Assembly: GCA_024278275.1 (NCBI GenBank)
Contig: JAJRTN010000192.1
Coordinates: forward strand, 1-40,871
Direction of reading: 5' to 3'
DNA: 40,871 nucleotides
Origin: Candidatus Hydrogenedentota bacterium
Lineage (GTDB): Bacteria > Hydrogenedentota > Hydrogenedentia > Hydrogenedentales > JAJRTN01
The notes under the pieces are model-generated. The model was not told where the DNA came from. It did no database searches and saw only the letters and a program-made list of their open reading frames with translations. This document shows positions 17,449 to 26,985 of this stretch, one piece after another (position 1 is the first letter of the stretch; every line of letters starts with the position of its first letter). A program made the translations under genes and the position numbers.

Positions 17449-19001
<1,553 letters not shown>

Positions 19002-19002
19002 T

Positions 19003-19380
19003 TCACCCTCCCAGAAGGTCTTCGATGACCTCTTTCAGTTTCTCGGGCGTAAAGGGTTTACGCAGATATGCACGCACCCCCTTGGCCTTAAGCTCCTCGA
19101 TTCGCGTGGTGCTGCCCTCCGTGGAAATCACGACCACGGGCAGCGCGGCCAAGTCATCGTCGGCCCGCATCCGTTCGATCATTTCCACGCCGTTCATGAC
19201 GGGCATGTTGATGTCGGTCAGCACCAGGTCCACCCACTGTTCACGAAGGACATCCAATCCCTCCTGGCCGTTCGCGGCGGTATGCAATTCCCCCAAGTCC
19301 AGGCCGGACATCTTCAGGGTCTTGGAAATCACCGCGCGAACCGTGTCTGAATCATCCACAATCAGGATGTTATAGGCCAT
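19003..19380 (-). CDS. cheY: CheY-like response regulator (first copy)
   Basis: A 125-aa stand-alone receiver domain. The acidic pair is Asp9-Asp10 (ILIVDDSD), the phosphoacceptor Asp56 lies in LVLTDINMPVMNG, and the conserved Thr/Ser and Lys appear in PVVVISTEGS and LRKPFTPEKL. No output domain. AAAGGAG precedes the ATG by six bases. It is followed with a one-base gap by a CheX-like phosphatase. The second CheY at 22409-22780 is diverged from it. Confidence 0.95.
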   Translation of the reverse strand: MAYNILIVDDSDTVRAVISKTLKMSGLDLGELHTAANGQEGLDVLREQWVDLVLTDINMPVMNGVEMIERMRADDDLAALPVVVISTEGSTTRIEELKAKGVRAYLRKPFTPEKLKEVIEDLLGG

Positions 19381-19400
19381 CCCTGTCTCCTTTATGCGCC

Positions 19401-19509
19401 ATTTACGAAAAGACGGTTTTCAACGGGACCGCCACGGGTACCCCACCGGGACCAAGAGCAGCCCCACGGATGTCCCGTGAATAATCCATTTCTTTTCTCT
19501 TTCGCAAAT
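19401..19509. repeat. degenerate relative of the TIR element, between cheY and HDOD
   Basis: The ends ATTTACGAAAAG (19401-19412) and CTTTCGCAAAT (19499-19509) are inverted copies with one mismatch and one gap, and nearly match the termini of the 138-bp element at 32370-32507. Inside lies another inverted pair, ACGGGAC near 19433 and GTCCCGT near 19472. It fills most of a 148-bp intergenic gap. Confidence 0.5.
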
Positions 19510-19515
19510 GCCTTT

Positions 19516-20367
19516 TCAGGGGGTACGGGAAAACTGGGGAGCCATATCCTCCAGGTCCGCCAGCATCCCGCACGTTACCTGCTCCGCGATTTTATTGTTT
19601 AGCCCAAGACGATCCACAACATCCTGGGAAGGCCGATAGTTAAGTCCGTCCACGCCGACGCCCAGACCGCACTCGATGCTCAGAATGTCCACGATATGAA
19701 CCAGATCCGTCGCCAACGTATCGTCGTCGGCCTCATCGGGCTGGTGATGCCACCGGGTAACATGGACCACCTCGGCCGGTATCCCCCATTCGGTGAGGAG
19801 GGCCGCGCCGACTTCGGCGTGGTCGATGCCCAACACTTCACACTCGGCCCGTTCAAAAGATACCCGCTTTTCCCGCGCCACGTTGACAATGGCATCGCCA
19901 TCGATTTCAAGGAAAGTTCCGAGGACAATCTTGCCGATGTCATGAAGCAGCCCCGCAGTAAAGACACATTGGGGCACCTCTCGTTTCAGCGTTTTGGCCA
20001 AACGTTCCGCACCCATGGCCACGGCAGCCAAATGCTGCAACAGTTGGCCGGCGGAGAGATCATAGCCGCGTATGGGTTGTTTCGCGTAAGGATATATCGC
20101 CGAGGTAAGTACGAGCTGAAGCAACCGTTGTGTTCCAAACAGCACGCCCGCGTCACGGAGGGACACCACCTTGCGCGGCCCCGCGAAGTAGGCGGAATTG
20201 GCCATGCGAAGCACCTCGGCAGTGAGGCCGGGATCGAGTTCCACGGCGGCCATGATCTCCCCCACGCCCATGTCCGGGTCCTGCACGAGCCGCAGCACTT
20301 TCATAACGGCCGCCGGCAGACCGGGGACGGTGGGCACCTTGGCCAAAATCTCTTCTCGCATTGTCAC
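19516..20367 (-). CDS. HDOD-domain protein
   Basis: A 283-aa protein made of an HDOD domain, a catalytically degenerate HD-type fold used in signalling. The opening ILAKVPTVPGLPAAVMKVLR is the standard start, DLDPGLTAEV-like (ELDPGLTAEVLRMANSAYF) follows, and AGLLHDIGKIVLG carries the HD pair. HDOD proteins are often encoded in chemosensory clusters and coupled to CheA or CheY. The GTG at 20367 has GGGAG seven bases upstream; the ATG at 20361 is two codons later and 15 bases from it. The longer frame to 20472 overlaps cheD and is rejected. Confidence 0.9.
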   Translation of the reverse strand: MTMREEILAKVPTVPGLPAAVMKVLRLVQDPDMGVGEIMAAVELDPGLTAEVLRMANSAYFAGPRKVVSLRDAGVLFGTQRLLQLVLTSAIYPYAKQPIRGYDLSAGQLLQHLAAVAMGAERLAKTLKREVPQCVFTAGLLHDIGKIVLGTFLEIDGDAIVNVAREKRVSFERAECEVLGIDHAEVGAALLTEWGIPAEVVHVTRWHHQPDEADDDTLATDLVHIVDILSIECGLGVGVDGLNYRPSQDVVDRLGLNNKIAEQVTCGMLADLEDMAPQFSRTP

Positions 20368-20383
20368 GATGGATCTCCCTGCA

Positions 20384-20863
20384 CTATTCGAGGTCGCGCT
20401 CCACGCCCTTGGATTTGATGACGGTCCGGCCCGTATCCATGTAAAGAAGCATGGTCCGGGCAACGGACCCACCCGTATCCTCGGCGGAAATCAGAATGTC
20501 ATTTTTCCATAGTACCTTGCGTAAGACAACCTTGTTGCGGTCACCAATGCGAAACGTGTTGCTGTCGTCAAGAAGTTTCGCGGCACCTGCCAGCTTAGCC
20601 ACCAATCGTGATTTCTGGGCACCCATATTCAACAACTCCTGAATCAGCAGGGGCACCCCCGTATCGGTGAACATGCAGGGCGCTTTTTTCGCCCGTTCCT
20701 TGTCAATCTTGGACAGGGGCAACATGCAATGTATCAGGCCGCCCACCTGTGCCACGGGGTCATGGAGCGTAAGTCCCACACAAGACCCCAGCGAGTAGGT
20801 GATCAAAATGTCCGACGGATTATTGGACACCTTCATGTCTGAAATGCCCACGGTTATTTGCAC
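20384..20863 (-). CDS. cheD: chemoreceptor glutamine deamidase CheD (first copy)
   Basis: Deamidates receptor glutamines and, in Gram-positives, assists CheC. The 159-aa protein has the catalytic triad in ITYSLGSCVGLTLHDP and GGLIHCMLP: Thr22, Cys28 and His45. GRNKV-like (RIGDRNKVVLRKVLWKNDI) and DTGGSVARTM are the other family signatures. GTG start at 20863 chosen for GGAAGGGA about seven bases upstream and for giving the standard CheD N-terminus; the open frame runs on to 20908. CheR precedes it after a 145-base gap with no gene. Confidence 0.93.
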   Translation of the reverse strand: MQITVGISDMKVSNNPSDILITYSLGSCVGLTLHDPVAQVGGLIHCMLPLSKIDKERAKKAPCMFTDTGVPLLIQELLNMGAQKSRLVAKLAGAAKLLDDSNTFRIGDRNKVVLRKVLWKNDILISAEDTGGSVARTMLLYMDTGRTVIKSKGVERDLE

Positions 20864-21008
20864 ATCATGTCCCTTCCCCGCACCGCGGCCTGATGAATAT
20901 GGACCCACAAACCTGGTCTCTCGCGTTCACTAGAAATAACTTGGTACCATTTACGGGAATTCGTCAGGGGCGCGTCCTTCATATGCGGCACAAAAACATA
21001 ACGCTGTA

Positions 21009-21812
21009 TTACGCTTTCTTGTATACGGCAGGTTGCATGGACTTGAACGGAGCGTTCAGGCCCGTAAGACTCTCGGAATGGCCCACCATGAGGTAACCCC
21101 CGGGGCGCAGAAGCCGGTGAATTTCCATCACCAGCCGGGTGCGGACAACATGGTCGAAATAGATCATCACGTTTCGGCAGAACACCACATCCATGGGCCC
21201 CTTCATGGGGAATGGCGGCGTGGACAGGTTGATCCGGTTGAAGGAGATAAGCCTTCGTAACTCGGGCTTGACGGTATACACGGCTTCGCCGCCCCGCGCG
21301 GGAGGGTGAAAGTACTTGACGAGCAAGCGCTCCGGTATACGCTCCGTTTTGTTGGCCGGGTAGGCACCCTTCCGCGCGATGTCGAGCACTCGGGTGGAAA
21401 TATCGGTGGCGAGAATTTTCAGGTCCACATTGCCCCCCTGGAATGCCTCCAGGGCGGTCATGGCGAGGCAATAGGGTTCTTCGCCGGTTGAACTGGCGGC
21501 GCACCAGATACGAAAGCGCGACTGTCCCTGCTTGCGCCATTCCGCCAACAAATCGGCCAAGAGATCAAAATGGGCGGCCTCGCGGTAAAAGCTGGTCACG
21601 TTGGTCGAGATGGCGTCCAGCAATTGCACCAACTCATTGCCTTTCTCATCCTGTTTCACAAAGGCGAGATAGGCTTCATAATCTTCTATGTTCAACGCGC
21701 GCATGCGTTTACCGACACGTGCCGCAACCAAGGCGACTTTCTGGGGGCCCAGTGAGATACCGCTCTTTTCGTAGACCAGCTTTTGAAACTGTTCAAACGT
21801 TCTCTGGTCCAT
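21009..21812 (-). CDS. cheR: chemotaxis protein methyltransferase CheR
   Basis: Transfers methyl groups from SAM to receptor glutamates. The 267-aa protein has the N-terminal helical domain (FEQFQKLVYEKSGISLG), then STNVTSFYRE, the SAM-binding CAASSTGEEPYCLAMTA, ATDISTRVLDIARKG, and CRNVMIYFDHVVRTRLV, all CheR hallmarks. Length is normal. ATG at 21812 is used rather than the TTG one codon upstream; GGGAG lies nine bases before the ATG. It lies between the two CheD genes. Confidence 0.97.
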   Translation of the reverse strand: MDQRTFEQFQKLVYEKSGISLGPQKVALVAARVGKRMRALNIEDYEAYLAFVKQDEKGNELVQLLDAISTNVTSFYREAAHFDLLADLLAEWRKQGQSRFRIWCAASSTGEEPYCLAMTALEAFQGGNVDLKILATDISTRVLDIARKGAYPANKTERIPERLLVKYFHPPARGGEAVYTVKPELRRLISFNRINLSTPPFPMKGPMDVVFCRNVMIYFDHVVRTRLVMEIHRLLRPGGYLMVGHSESLTGLNAPFKSMQPAVYKKA

Positions 21813-21875
21813 CAATGAGGACTCCCGCGGACGCGCCCGGTGCCGTTCGCCATGTCATGTTGGCACCACAGGGTG

Positions 21876-22379
21876 CTATGCATGCTCCGATAAAACCCAA
21901 TCACCGGCCCGAAGTTTATGTACTTTCAACACCATAAGATGCCCGGTGCCCGTGTCAAAAGCCACCTTTCTGCCCACGGAGCCGCCCGTATCCCATGACG
22001 CGACATGGATGTTCCTCCGTTCAAGCACTTCCAGGGCCACGGCGACGTTCTCCGCGCCCATGTCGGGTCCGACCGCGTCTCTCGGGCGTCCGCCACCCAG
22101 TACCTGCGCGACAAGATCCCGCCGCCGCGAACCGGCCTTCTCCATCATGTTGATCAATTCGATGGTCGCCACATTGCCATACTTGGGTGTCGCCCTGGCC
22201 GGGTCGCTTACCCTCGGAAAGAGGAAATGGTTCATGGCACCGATGCGGCGCTCCGAGTCCCACAGGCTCACGGCGACACATACGCCCACCACGGTGCTGA
22301 CCGTAGACCGCGCCTTGGAACAGTAGATGTACCCCGGTTGCAGATAGTACTGAATGGGTTGTGCAACTTCATGGCTCAT
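21876..22379 (-). CDS. cheD: chemoreceptor glutamine deamidase CheD (second copy)
   Basis: A second, diverged CheD of 167 aa. The catalytic cysteine (Cys34) lies in VSTVVGVCVAVSLWDSE, with GVC in place of the usual GSC, and His51 in GAMNHFLFPR. Ser28 is where the usual threonine sits. It keeps RNIHVASWDTGGSVGRKV in place of the late DTGG signature. The ATG at 22379 opens after a weak AGGG. Having two CheD copies in one operon suggests two receptor classes or different partners, since CheD also binds CheC-type phosphatases. Confidence 0.88.
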   Translation of the reverse strand: MSHEVAQPIQYYLQPGYIYCSKARSTVSTVVGVCVAVSLWDSERRIGAMNHFLFPRVSDPARATPKYGNVATIELINMMEKAGSRRRDLVAQVLGGGRPRDAVGPDMGAENVAVALEVLERRNIHVASWDTGGSVGRKVAFDTGTGHLMVLKVHKLRAGDWVLSEHA

Positions 22380-22408
22380 GGCGGACGCCCTATGGGGATT
22401 TCGGCGCC

Positions 22409-22780
22409 TCAGCCACCGCCGGCCTTGGCAATCATCTCCTGGATCTTGCTCACAATGGCGTTGGGCTCAAAGGGTTTGATGATGTAGTTCTGGGCGCCCG
22501 CTTTAAGCGCTTCAATGACCCGGCCCTTTTCCGCCTCGGTGGTGACCATGATAATCGGCATGGTTTTGCCGTTTGCCCGGATGGCGCGCACGGCGTCGAT
22601 GCCAAGCATGTTCGGCATGTTCCAATCCATCAGGACCACGTCATAGTCGGTACCGGACGTGGCTTCAACGGCTTCCTTGCCATCCGCCGCCTGATCGACA
22701 TCCGTTATGCCGGCGCGGCCCAAAGCACCGATAAGAACCTTGCGCATCACCGCGGAGTCATCGACCACAAGTGCTTTCAT
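22409..22780 (-). CDS. cheY: CheY-like response regulator (second copy)
   Basis: A 123-aa stand-alone receiver. The acidic pair is Asp7-Asp8 (LVVDDSA), the phosphoacceptor Asp52 in LMDWNMP, with IIMVTTEAEKG and IIKPFEP supplying Thr and Lys. AAAGGA precedes the ATG. It sits after cheX and before the second cheD. Compared with the copy at 19003-19380 it has the motility-type DWNMP motif, so it is the more CheY-like of the two. Confidence 0.95.
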   Translation of the reverse strand: MKALVVDDSAVMRKVLIGALGRAGITDVDQAADGKEAVEATSGTDYDVVLMDWNMPNMLGIDAVRAIRANGKTMPIIMVTTEAEKGRVIEALKAGAQNYIIKPFEPNAIVSKIQEMIAKAGGG

Positions 22781-22851
22781 ACTGATTCCTTTCCTATCAT
22801 TTCACAAACCCATGATTGCTTCGGCGTGCGGTCAATTCAACAACCCGCGCC

Positions 22852-23334
22852 TCAGCCATCGCCCTCGGGGGTTTTTTCAAAGGTTACCCGAAGTGAGAAT
22901 GAGCCCAAATCACTGTCAAAGGGTACTTCGAGCCAAATCGAACCCGAAGGATAATCGATATTGTAACTGTTCCCCCGGACCACGGTAGGCAAACTCAGAT
23001 CGATGGGTTCCTCGTCGCCCGTGTTCAGCTTGGCCTTGGCGCCGCCCGCCACAATGTTCACCATTTCCGCAATGGCGTCCGACACAGTGTCATCCAGCAC
23101 CTTGATGTCCGTCCCCAGGAGTTGGTTGACCATGTTCAACGCGGTATCGAGGGGGAAAGACAGGGCCACCATGCCCCGCGCCATGCCGCTGAGCCCTATG
23201 AGTGCCATGATGTGACGTGGATTGGCCTGATCCTTGGCAAGCCCCACATCGCCCCGGGTTGCCCTGGCACCGAGCATGGTGGTGAAGAGGTCATAGGTAG
23301 CCTCAATAAACGGATTGATGTACTCCACTTTCAT
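22852..23334 (-). CDS. cheX: CheX-family chemotaxis phosphatase
   Basis: A 160-aa CheX-type CheY-P phosphatase. The opening VEYINPFIEATYDLFTTML matches the classic CheX N-terminus, and the catalytic Glu-x-x-Asn pair lies in DAIAEMVNIVAGGAKAKL. It resembles T. maritima CheX more closely than the 18537-19001 protein does. The ATG at 23334 is used; a TTG three codons upstream is also possible. The gap to cheW (168 bases) contains a poor promoter candidate, TTGTCA with TAAGAA 17 bases away on the minus strand. It probably acts on the neighbouring CheY. Confidence 0.92.
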   Translation of the reverse strand: MKVEYINPFIEATYDLFTTMLGARATRGDVGLAKDQANPRHIMALIGLSGMARGMVALSFPLDTALNMVNQLLGTDIKVLDDTVSDAIAEMVNIVAGGAKAKLNTGDEEPIDLSLPTVVRGNSYNIDYPSGSIWLEVPFDSDLGSFSLRVTFEKTPEGDG

Positions 23335-23502
23335 CAGACACAATCGCCTTCCATGTTATGCCATTGGCAACAAAACCCGGCTCAACAAGACCGCCCTTTC
23401 CCCCTCTATGTTGCGGTTTTCTTAAGCGGAAGCAGAAAACATGACAAAATTATTGACGTCTTGATTTCGTGCCGGCAACCTTCATGACCTATCCAGGCAC
23501 CC

Positions 23503-24033
23503 TTACCACGCCTGATTGGCCTCGCTCTCCTTCAACAAGTGCAACTCACCCGCGGTCAGGATCTGGTTCACATCGAGGAGAATCACCACCGCCTCGTCCA
23601 CCTTGGCCATGGCGAGAATAAAAGCGGTATCCACCGAGGCGCCAAAGGCCGGAGCAGGCTCGATCTGGCTTTCCGCAATGTCCAAGACCTCGGAGACTTC
23701 GTCCACCAGTACACCCATGGTAAGGGGACCTTCGGGGCCCTCAACCCGCACCACGATGATACAGGTGCGATCCGTATCCTCTCGTGCTTCCATCTGGAGT
23801 TTCCGGCGCAGATCGACCACGGGAATCACTTTGCCCCGCAGGTTGATCACACCGCGCACAAAGGCGGGAGTCCTGGGCACGGGAGTGATGCTCATGAGGC
23901 CGATAATCTCCTGCACCTTGAGTATCTCGATACTGTAGGTTTCACCACGAAGGCGGAAAGTTAGGTATTTGCCGGCCAGCCCCGCCAAGTTCCCGTGCGT
24001 CCGGCCGTCGGTGTTTTCCCGGTTCTCACGCAT
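23503..24033 (-). CDS. cheW: chemotaxis coupling protein CheW
   Basis: Scaffold that links receptors to CheA. The 176-aa protein has the CheW fold: YLTFRLRGETYSIEILKVQE, the receptor-contact MSITPVPRTPAFVRGVINLR, GKVIPVVDLRRKL and MGVLVDEVSEVLDI. About 20 polar residues precede the domain. GAAGGG lies upstream of the ATG. It follows cheA by 42 bases. It is the only CheW in the window, besides the CheW-like domain at the end of CheA. Confidence 0.96.
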   Translation of the reverse strand: MRENRENTDGRTHGNLAGLAGKYLTFRLRGETYSIEILKVQEIIGLMSITPVPRTPAFVRGVINLRGKVIPVVDLRRKLQMEAREDTDRTCIIVVRVEGPEGPLTMGVLVDEVSEVLDIAESQIEPAPAFGASVDTAFILAMAKVDEAVVILLDVNQILTAGELHLLKESEANQAW

Positions 24034-24075: not shown

Positions 24076-26874
24076 CTAGTTCTCGCCAGCGATACGAAGA
24101 AGCCCCACAATATCCAGTATCAACCCCACGCGGCCGTCGGGCATGATTGCGCCACCGGCGATGCCCGGCAGATCCCGGAGGGCTTCACCCAGGGGCTTAA
24201 TGACGATCTGCTGCTGACCGAGGATCTCGTCGATCAACAAGGCCACTCGTTTGCCGTCACTCTCCACGACGACCACGGTACCCTCGGTTGGATTCTCCCG
24301 TGCGCCGTCAATATGAAACATCTCATGCAGGTGGAACAAAGGCAATAGCTTGCCCTGAAGTTTCACCATTTCCGCGCGCCCTGTCACGGTGCTCAGATCC
24401 TGCTCGGTGGGCCGGAGCGATACCACGATGGACAGCGTGGGCAGGATGAACCGTTCCGTCCCCACGCGGACCACCATACCGTCGATAATGGCCAGCGTAA
24501 GGGGCAGGCGGATGGTGAATACCGTGCCCTTGCCCGTTTCGGACTGGATATCAACCTGCCCCCGCAATGATTCGATATTACGCTTCACCACGTCCATGCC
24601 GACACCACGACCGGACACTTCGGTGACTTTGCTCGCGGTGGAAAACCCCGCCTCAAAAATCAGGTTCCACACTTCGCGGTCGCTGAGCTGCTCCGATTCG
24701 CTGACCAGTCCGCGCTCCACGGCTTTCTTGAGGATGGCATCACGGTTGAGTCCCCGACCGTCATCCTCAATTTCAATGTGGATATTGCCACCTTGGTGGT
24801 AGGCGCTCAGGTGAACCTTACCCGCTTCGGGTTTTCCCGCTTTCACGCGATCCTCGGGGCTGTCTTCCAGCCCGTGATCCACGGCGTTTCGGATCATGTG
24901 AACCAGCGGATCGCCGATCTTGTCCACCACGCTTTTGTCCAATTCAGTATCTTCACCGCTCATGCTGAAGGCCACGGACTTTCCGGATTTCTTCGACAGG
25001 TCCCGGGCAAGACGGGCCATTTTCTGAAACGTGGCGCGCACGGGAACCATGCGAAGCGAGGTGGCCATCTCCTGTAATTCACGGGTGATCTTGTCCAACT
25101 GGCTGATGTGACGCCCAAGATCACTAGCCGTATCCTGAAGCAGTTCGGGGGACTGGGTCACCATGGTTTCCGCGATGACCAACTCTCCCACCGCGTCCAC
25201 CAGTTGGTCCAGGCGGGCGGCGTCCACCTTCACCGCCTCCCGCACCTTGACGACCGCTCCAGGTCCTCTGCCCCGCTGTTTGCGGAGGGCTGCGGCCACT
25301 TCCCGGGGAGCCACGGCGCCGTTCCGCACCAGGACTTCACCCAAGCGGGGTTTCTGCGGTGGTTCCTGTTGCTTTTCAAGGGCGCGGGCCACTTCTTCCT
25401 CCGTGACCAGCCCCATGGATACGAGCACTTCGCCCAGCTTGCGTTTTCCGCCCTCTTTCTTCTGCGCCTCCAGCGCGGCCACGAGTTGCCGGGTGGAAAT
25501 GATGGACTGCTCCACCAGCACGGCACCCAGCCGGGACAGTTCCAAGGGCTGCTGTTGCTCGGCAAGCGCCGCTTCCACAGCTTCCGCCGTGGTGATCCCG
25601 TCCGCCACCAGGATATCGCCAAGCTTCTCGGGTTCGCTGGCCGGCGCGGGGCTCGGAGACTTGTCAGTGATGGCCGCCTTCAATTCAGCCACCAGTTCCG
25701 GAAGGCCTTCCGTGGGGACCAGGTCGCTGTTGTTGTCCAATGCCGTGCGCACGTTTTCGATGCACTGTTTGAGGGAATCAACGGCACTGAAAACCAGGTC
25801 GATCCGATGCCCTTCCAGGGAGACCGCGCCCTTACGCACCTGATCCAACAGGCTTTCGGCTTCGTGAGCCAAAGCTTTGATCTCGTCGAGAGCAATGAAA
25901 CCCGCGACACCCTTGATGGTGTGGAAGGCGCGGAACACGGCGTTGACCGCTTCCTCGTTGCCGGGATCGGTTTCCAGCGTGAGCAGTTGAACATCCGAAT
26001 TGTCCAAATGCTCCATGGCTTCCGTGATAAAATCCGCGATGAGTTCTTTATCGCCCGTGAGGGGGCCCGGCTCGAAATGAAGCCGCCCTTCCGCCGGTAC
26101 ATTGGGGGCGACTTGGGGCACCTCCTTTTCCCCGGCCTCGGCGGTTTCCCCCTGGCCGCGAAGCGACTGGAATTGCGCCAACAGGGCTTCCGGTCCCTCC
26201 GGCGCCCCGCCACGACCCGCGTAGGCATCGAAGGCCCGGCGCAGCCAATCCCTCAGCGCCAACAGGGGATCCACCAACCGGCTATGTTCCACCTCCAGCA
26301 TGGCGTCCTCAGCGGCATGGCAGAGTTTCTCGACCTGCTCAAGTCCCAACATGGCCGATTCACCCTTGAGGGTGTGCAGGTAACGTTTCAGCGCGGCGAA
26401 CTCCTCTTCACTCGCCCCGCCCTCCAAGGCCAGAACCATACTTTCCATCTCGTCCAGACCGCTATCCTGACGGCTCAGAAAGTCCGAGAAAATGGCCTCG
26501 TCAACATAGGCGGGCAAGGTAACCGAAGCACCGGATTCCGCGCCCCCTTCATCCGCACCCAATTCGGCCGGATAGTCAATCTCATCATCCGTGTAGTCCC
26601 CCGAGGTGGCTCGCTGCATCGCCGACACCGCCCGCCCTGCGATCTCCAACGCCGCGTGGGAGTCCCCCGCCTCGTCCAGAATCACGGATTCGACCAACGC
26701 GGCGGCGGCCTTTGCGCACGAGGCGGCCCGCTTCATGCCCGCCTCCTCACCCCATGCCACAAGCGCTTCAAACAGGCCATGCATCTCCGCCAACATGGGC
26801 AGGTCGACGGGATCCGCCAAAACAGCGCATTCTGAGAGTTTCTCCACCAGCGCCGTCACGTCCGTGCTAGCCAT
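24076..26874 (-). CDS. cheA: chemotaxis histidine kinase CheA with two Hpt domains and four GspE-N/MshEN-like motifs
   Basis: A 932-aa sensor kinase, larger than the usual 600-700. Domains in order: an Hpt with phosphoacceptor His167 (YLHTLKGESAM); a second Hpt with His318 (FHTIKGVAGF); four 24-residue motifs at 417-440, 448-471, 479-502 and 510-533; the P3 dimerisation helices (RLDQLVDAVGELVIAETM, about 554-571); the ATPase with N box DPLVHMIRNAVDHGLE (about 655-670), G1 DDGRGL and G2 GRGVGMDV; and the C-terminal CheW-like P5 domain (from about 795). The four motifs read K/R-L-G-x-x-L-V...L/V-x-x-A-L-x-x-Q, with seven-residue linkers throughout. They occupy the place where P2 normally binds CheY, and no P2 domain is recognised. 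The start at 26874 has GGGGA upstream; the frame extends 15 codons further. Confidence 0.97.
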   Translation of the reverse strand: MASTDVTALVEKLSECAVLADPVDLPMLAEMHGLFEALVAWGEEAGMKRAASCAKAAAALVESVILDEAGDSHAALEIAGRAVSAMQRATSGDYTDDEIDYPAELGADEGGAESGASVTLPAYVDEAIFSDFLSRQDSGLDEMESMVLALEGGASEEEFAALKRYLHTLKGESAMLGLEQVEKLCHAAEDAMLEVEHSRLVDPLLALRDWLRRAFDAYAGRGGAPEGPEALLAQFQSLRGQGETAEAGEKEVPQVAPNVPAEGRLHFEPGPLTGDKELIADFITEAMEHLDNSDVQLLTLETDPGNEEAVNAVFRAFHTIKGVAGFIALDEIKALAHEAESLLDQVRKGAVSLEGHRIDLVFSAVDSLKQCIENVRTALDNNSDLVPTEGLPELVAELKAAITDKSPSPAPASEPEKLGDILVADGITTAEAVEAALAEQQQPLELSRLGAVLVEQSIISTRQLVAALEAQKKEGGKRKLGEVLVSMGLVTEEEVARALEKQQEPPQKPRLGEVLVRNGAVAPREVAAALRKQRGRGPGAVVKVREAVKVDAARLDQLVDAVGELVIAETMVTQSPELLQDTASDLGRHISQLDKITRELQEMATSLRMVPVRATFQKMARLARDLSKKSGKSVAFSMSGEDTELDKSVVDKIGDPLVHMIRNAVDHGLEDSPEDRVKAGKPEAGKVHLSAYHQGGNIHIEIEDDGRGLNRDAILKKAVERGLVSESEQLSDREVWNLIFEAGFSTASKVTEVSGRGVGMDVVKRNIESLRGQVDIQSETGKGTVFTIRLPLTLAIIDGMVVRVGTERFILPTLSIVVSLRPTEQDLSTVTGRAEMVKLQGKLLPLFHLHEMFHIDGARENPTEGTVVVVESDGKRVALLIDEILGQQQIVIKPLGEALRDLPGIAGGAIMPDGRVGLILDIVGLLRIAGEN

Positions 26875-26985
26875 GCCAAATCCCCTGTCCAAGCGGCCCC
26901 CGCCCTTAACAATCCGCATTTCTTCAGTAAGGGCATATGCTTATCCTTTGCAGCAAGGTCCTGTGAAGTTCACTGTATAAGGCGC

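Follow-up and report, generated by a model that had tools for sequence, protein, structure and literature searches.

A CheA-like kinase of Candidatus Hydrogenedentota with four MshEN-type motifs at the P2 position, a putative c-di-GMP-binding connector

A CheA-like kinase, P0001, encoded by a Candidatus Hydrogenedentota bacterium carries an array of four MshEN-type motifs between its phosphorylatable Hpt domains and its dimerisation and kinase core. By sequence and predicted fold, the array is MshEN_N. The literature portrays CheA as a kinase that has no input domain itself and depends on chemoreceptors (PMC10782961). We consider it likely that the array of P0001 binds c-di-GMP, and we hold it reasonably probable that P0001 as a whole is a P2-less CheA in which a c-di-GMP-binding double MshEN_N connector controls the kinase. 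If the c-di-GMP sites are real, this CheA would connect the messenger of the sessile/motile transition directly to the chemotaxis kinase.

Domain layout of P0001 and the motif array

The gene lies on the minus strand of the window (the whole stretch of DNA analysed, 40,871 nucleotides) and encodes the following features.

24076-26874, minus strand: cheA-like kinase P0001, 932 aa (translation; Pfam Hpt twice, H-kinase_dim, HATPase_c, CheW)
26236-26457, minus strand: Hpt (P1) copy 1, residues 140-213, HTLKG phosphorylation motif (PF01627, 49.0 bits on the segment)
25744-26046, minus strand: Hpt (P1) copy 2, residues 277-377, FHTIKG (PF01627; alignment)
25555-25626, minus strand: MshEN motif 1, residues 417-440, KLGDILVADGITTAEAVEAALAEQ (half-profile NF053729 match, 25549-25626)
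25462-25533, minus strand: MshEN motif 2, residues 448-471, RLGAVLVEQSIISTRQLVAALEAQ (first half of the best NF053729 match, 25369-25533)
25369-25440, minus strand: MshEN motif 3, residues 479-502, KLGEVLVSMGLVTEEEVARALEKQ (second half of the best NF053729 match, 25369-25533)
25276-25347, minus strand: MshEN motif 4, residues 510-533, RLGEVLVRNGAVAPREVAAALRKQ (half-profile NF053729 match, 25267-25347)
25057-25239, minus strand: P3 dimerisation domain, residues 546-606 (PF02895)
24496-24912, minus strand: P4 kinase domain (HATPase_c), residues 655-793 (PF02518)
24094-24480, minus strand: P5 CheW-like domain, residues 799-927 (PF01584)

Pfam matches and motif positions give the domain order Hpt-Hpt-array-P3-P4-P5, with the CheA core set of P1 (Hpt), P3, P4 and P5 all present. 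The NCBIfam CheA model NF007835 matches P0001 with an E-value of 3e-143, yet under the equivalog cut-off of that model. An in-frame ATG upstream, at 26919, provides an alternative start and a product of 947 aa. H318, in the FHTIKG motif of the second Hpt, is nearly invariant in the orthologue alignment. Residues 1-100 (about 26575-26874) form a further N-terminal four-helix domain of high AF2 confidence and without a Pfam match, possibly a degenerate Hpt.

The first-pass annotation had described four regularly spaced motifs where a P2 domain should be, and both parts of that description hold. The motifs are 24 residues each, start at residues 417, 448, 479 and 510 with a period of exactly 31, and are joined by linkers (QQPLELS, KKEGGKR and QEPPQKP) that are every one seven residues long. 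A small deviation is found in motif 2, where the turn Gly (position 10) is replaced by Ser; motif 4 is the best conserved among orthologues. The best motif score in 500 shuffled versions of P0001 was 16 bits, as compared with the 39-56 bits observed; this position weight matrix was built with P0001 included, and the independent test is NCBIfam NF053729 (below). For P2, the Pfam scan returned no match to a P2/CheY-binding domain at E<=10. There is also no room for one, since the gaps measure only ~36 residues from the second Hpt to motif 1, 12 from motif 4 to P3, and ~57 between the two Hpt domains, the last mostly of low confidence in the AF2 model. P0001 shares Hpt, P3, P4 and P5 with canonical CheA (E. 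coli, T. maritima) but differs from it in its two Hpt domains, its lack of P2 and the MshEN array at the P2 position.

Family assignment, predicted fold and pairing of the motifs

NF053729, the NCBIfam 'cyclic di-GMP-binding domain, MshE-related' (53 positions, curated cut-off 38 bits), matches the full protein over its positions 1-53 with 89.5 bits (E 8.8e-26); the MshE control scores 86.5 bits. The best match covers motifs 2 and 3 (residues 448-502), with more matches in motifs 1 and 4, and as isolated adjacent pairs motifs 1+2, 2+3 and 3+4 score 46.1, 66.0 and 55.2 bits, all above the cut-off. The same profile matches 22/22 orthologous CheA regions, and in a ranking of the genome the CheA is its second-best match (64.4 bits). 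Sequence searches of the PDB with P0001 (phmmer) retrieved PilF (2.9e-15), PilB (4.7e-11) and MshE (1.3e-6).

The first-pass annotation had suggested a profile search against T2SSE_N/MshEN, and here the two models part. NF053729 supports the assignment as above, whereas Pfam PF05157 (T2SSE_N/MshEN) matches neither P0001 nor any of 22 orthologues. PF05157 likewise misses the motif pairs of MshE and PilB used as controls, and its matches in the genome lie directly downstream of NF053729 matches; for these reasons we take it to model the C-terminal MshEN subdomain, which by this sequence evidence is absent from the P0001 CheA. Because it misses the controls, PF05157 cannot decide the identity of the array. 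The sole Pfam family over its cut-off on the isolated region is DUF4388 (27.9 bits vs 25). We rejected it as a separate identity, as the MshE, PilB and PilF controls score 20.7-24 bits over the same short stretch; the match reflects a helical segment common to these proteins. SMC_ScpB and other Pfam candidates for the array fell under their cut-offs.

Structure prediction, also proposed at first pass, points to the same fold. The AF2 model of residues 400-562 has a mean pLDDT of 84.6 (~95 over most of the motifs) and contains four helix pairs, with helix lengths alternating 11, 13, 11 and 13; the four-helix bundle of MshEN_N is found in this predicted array. The best Foldseek match in the PDB is c-di-GMP-bound MshE (5htl_B; 0.8 A over 56 columns, probability 1.00), and the top eleven matches are all c-di-GMP-bound MshE or PilF GSPII-B; the best of the eleven superpose at 0.8-1.2 A over 56-59 columns, and the probability is 1.00 for most. 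The Foldseek E-values are weak (0.02 and above) because just ~56 residues align. The MshEN-type assignment made at first pass thus stands, on the 89.5 bits of NF053729 and on a predicted fold closest to c-di-GMP-bound MshE.

Within the model, a canonical, discrete MshEN bundle seems to be made up of motifs 2 and 3. The 45% Foldseek identity to 5htl_B over 56 columns fits the 2+3 pair only (43% identity to MshE, 26/60 columns), with 30% for 3+4 and ~36% for 1+2, a figure counted by hand as the automatic 1+2 alignment had collapsed onto motif 2. The sequence-profile matches in the PDB align mostly to motifs 2+3. Linker 2 (KKEGGKR) is similar to those found within the bundles of PilB (RTSGGQQ) and MshE (KNTGR), whereas linkers 1 and 3 are distinguished by Pro (21/28 and 27/28); Pro is also present in linker 2 (17/28), and Gly is the clearer difference (15/28 for linker 2 vs 3/28). 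In CheAs with two motifs only, motif A is most often nearest motif 1 (8/15) and motif B nearest motif 4 (8/15). This likeness suggests a 1+4 pair into which a 2+3 bundle was inserted, and motifs 1 and 4 most likely form a second site that encloses 2+3.

These observations weigh against the alternative that motifs 1+2 and 3+4 are two side-by-side bundles, derived by tandem duplication of one MshEN_N. Such an arrangement would be consistent with the alternating helix lengths in the AF2 model and with the passing NF053729 score of every adjacent pair, and the similarity of 1 to 3 and 2 to 4 narrowly exceeds that of the other two pairings (highest in 10/20 organisms, vs 8 and 2). It concerns architecture alone, being compatible with c-di-GMP binding and not exclusive of the main explanation. 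We regard side-by-side pairing as rather doubtful and favour the nested pairing, leaving a small remainder to an array with no second bundle. The 'superhelical array' raised at first pass is less likely, because the ligand face of a motif pairs with one partner only and motifs 2 and 3 appear as a discrete bundle in the AF2 model.

Ligand-contact residues and candidate functions

MshEN domains contact c-di-GMP through motif positions 1, 2, 3, 17, 21 and 24 (Wang et al. 2016, PMC5013675), with position 1 since widened to R/K/L (Neissner et al., PMC11731258). All four motifs of P0001 keep L2, G3, L21 and Q24 and have an accepted K or R at position 1; position 17 reads V, L, V and V in motifs 1-4, a conservative change from L17. 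All 24 contact positions are therefore filled by an accepted or conservative residue. Val or Ile is far commoner than Leu at position 17 throughout the four-motif clade and could weaken binding. Motif II of T. thermophilus PilF GSPII-C, a three-motif module assigned sub-micromolar c-di-GMP binding, has V17 (PMC11731258).

Of all columns of the array, G3 and Q24 vary least among orthologues (entropy 0-0.44 bits, vs 0.8-1.3 for core and 1.6-2.3 for other positions). Both residues are kept together in 23/23, 19/22, 23/25 and 23/23 clade sequences for motifs 1 to 4, counts that are not fully independent as the orthologues are mutually related. CheAs with two motifs and a linker of at most 4 residues (Desulfobacterota, planctomycetes, Zixiibacteriota, Gemmatimonadota and others) provide a contrast group, which keeps the overall pattern but has L21 in only 38% and Q24 in only 48% of its A motifs; three of these score 18-31 bits against NF053729, under the cut-off of 38. 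Arrays in CheA can thus persist while their contacts decay, a loss not seen in the four-motif clade. Two MshEN-like motifs joined by a linker of 3 residues, their contacts often lost, characterise a large class of CheAs (L051, L053, L057, L102 and similar) from Desulfobacterota, planctomycetes, Armatimonadota, Gemmatimonadota and Zixiibacteriota; the members of this class are probably non-binding descendants.

We propose that in P0001 the P1-to-P3 connector of a P2-less CheA was exchanged for a double MshEN_N module able to hold at most two c-di-GMP molecules per protomer, one in a canonical four-helix site formed by motifs 2+3 and another in the enclosing site of motifs 1+4. Given the place of the array, with the phosphorylatable Hpt on one side and the dimerisation/kinase core on the other, bound c-di-GMP would stiffen the connector or alter its orientation and thereby change the access of Hpt to the P4 active site and to CheY/CheB, coupling the biofilm messenger to chemosensory output with no separate adaptor. 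In line with this, a ligand bound to an MshEN-type domain can cause a turn of helix to unwind and the subdomains to change their orientation (PMC11731258). We lean towards two c-di-GMP sites per chain, and with similar confidence towards regulation of the kinase by c-di-GMP. The lack of an MshEN_C subdomain counts against the proposal, though the isolated MshEN_N of MshE binds c-di-GMP at 0.35 uM (PMC5013675). Diguanylate cyclases, which the first-pass annotation had suggested looking for, are represented by 10 GGDEF matches in the genome; with the 8 PilZ matches, these make the presence of c-di-GMP plausible. No diguanylate cyclase gene adjoins cheA in the window or in the flanking sequence examined.

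An unlikely alternative is that the array serves protein docking in place of P2, recruiting CheY, CheB or some other partner; c-di-GMP would then be absent, play a purely structural part or modulate the docking. The array does occupy the P2 position in a protein where P2 was not found, motif 4 beside P3 has extra conserved residues beyond the contacts (R22 invariant, A14, A18), and bound c-di-GMP has been suggested to be a structural part of a composite surface (authors of PMC11731258). However, P2 is auxiliary and dispensable, missing from more than half of CheAs with nothing substituting for it (PMC10782961), so a substitute is not required and the array may, but need not, stand in for CheY docking. 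In addition, the contact residues are conserved beyond the needs of a helical scaffold. That the array is a vestigial or passive helical spacer, an MshEN fold without ligand binding, is very unlikely given the retention of G3 and Q24 in all four motifs, although MshEN modules do decay, as in XpsE, where binding was lost (PMC5013675), and in the short-linker two-motif CheAs.

Related systems, distribution and genomic context

P0001 shares with the MshEN_N of V. cholerae MshE (5HTL; PMC5013675) the 24-residue motif, the contacts, the predicted four-helix bundle and the NF053729 match. It differs in having four motifs rather than two, in lacking MshEN_C, and in that its host protein is a histidine kinase and not a pilus ATPase. 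Its linkers are of 7 residues vs 5 in MshE, a difference that is not disqualifying, as the pilus ATPase PilB (5zfr) also has 7. PilF, the best PDB sequence match, is similar in that its GSPII-C (PMC11731258) has more than two motifs in a row and a 7-residue first linker; unlike P0001, GSPII-C has three motifs, plus a C-terminal subdomain and ATPase.

Tlp1 is a chemoreceptor that senses c-di-GMP through PilZ. Cbp1 is likewise described as a c-di-GMP-sensing chemoreceptor with PilZ (PMC6454048), and c-di-GMP is known to enter chemosensory pathways via PilZ at the receptor or, through the MapZ adaptor, at CheR (PMC12564702). In contrast to Tlp1, Cbp1 and MapZ, the putative input of P0001 is in the kinase itself. 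The occurrence of MshEN in CheA is already known from one main-text sentence of Wang et al. 2016 (PMC5013675, section 12), which names CheA among MshEN-bearing proteins; that CheA is, like P0001, a proposed point of c-di-GMP input. Our literature search found no experimental test of c-di-GMP binding by an MshEN-CheA. 'MshEN' and 'c-di-GMP' are both absent from the main text of a 2023 survey of 13,673 CheAs (PMC10782961), an omission that probably stems from PF05157 missing the array; Pfam-reliant surveys would miss this architecture. What is new here is the four-motif form, its spread, and the evidence for a canonical 2+3 bundle, perhaps nested in 1+4.

A full or partial orthologue was found in 32/68 genomes of the phylum, with four motifs in at least 24 and two in 3, the remainder being truncated, masked or uncounted. 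The P3-P4 sequences of two orthologues are identical to records named as Candidatus Hydrogenedentes/Hydrogenedentota, in line with membership of this phylum. Two-motif CheAs occur in several other phyla; those of the longer-linker type include one from the cultivated Desulfosarcina cetonica (L090). All these loci stem from a pattern scan biased towards relatives, and the counts are no unbiased frequencies. In a quick P3-P4 tree with many open forks, four-motif CheAs largely group with one another, and relatives with two motifs or none are scattered among them; its 21 state changes point to frequent gains and losses of motifs. As the MshEN-CheA architecture recurs across several phyla, a domain of ~130 aa offers a concrete test object. 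We suggest more tentatively that CheA here has its own intracellular input, in which two nested-bundle sites per protomer set autokinase or phosphotransfer activity and bypass receptors and PilZ adaptors, and that the two-motif form does likewise in other phyla.

Downstream of cheA lies a chemosensory cluster.

17449-24033, minus strand: cheW, cheX, cheY, cheD, cheR, cheD, HDOD, cheY, cheX, cheB (ten ORFs, Pfam)

The cluster holds two copies each of CheX (18537-19001 and 22852-23343), CheD (20384-20908 and 21876-22379) and CheY (19003-19380 and 22409-22780) together with HDOD, and the CheX copies are divergent (43 and 78 bits, Pfam). Whole-genome searches gave no MCP or GGDEF match on the contig of the cheA window. 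A single confident MCP was found in the genome; it lies on a different contig, which also carries a second CheA without the motifs. This sole confident chemoreceptor is a protoglobin-MCP (G000:C43; L111:444-5160) and probably senses haem/oxygen as a soluble protein. Its neighbouring CheA is divided between two overlapping frames, one holding Hpt and the other P3-P4-P5 (two CheW matches), which may reflect a frameshift, a misassembly or a CheA in two parts. A general claim of a 'receptor-less' chemosensory system was rejected, with MCPs present in 21/23 relatives' genomes searched; relatives have up to 14 MCPs, sometimes adjoining their counterpart of this cheA (e.g. G006:C88).

The Hpt-plus-array part of P0001 is matched three times in a 1076-aa frame (G033:C129:24032-26545) and twice in a 907-aa frame (G018:C173:8683-10446), with no kinase segment in the matches. 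Besides P0001, its own genome contains 16 full-length NF053729 matches over the cut-off; it also has one FliG. A 626-aa open frame in this genome (G000:C144:2651-3232) has two complete tandem NF053729 modules with a PF05157 domain behind them, a further case of a doubled c-di-GMP motif array.
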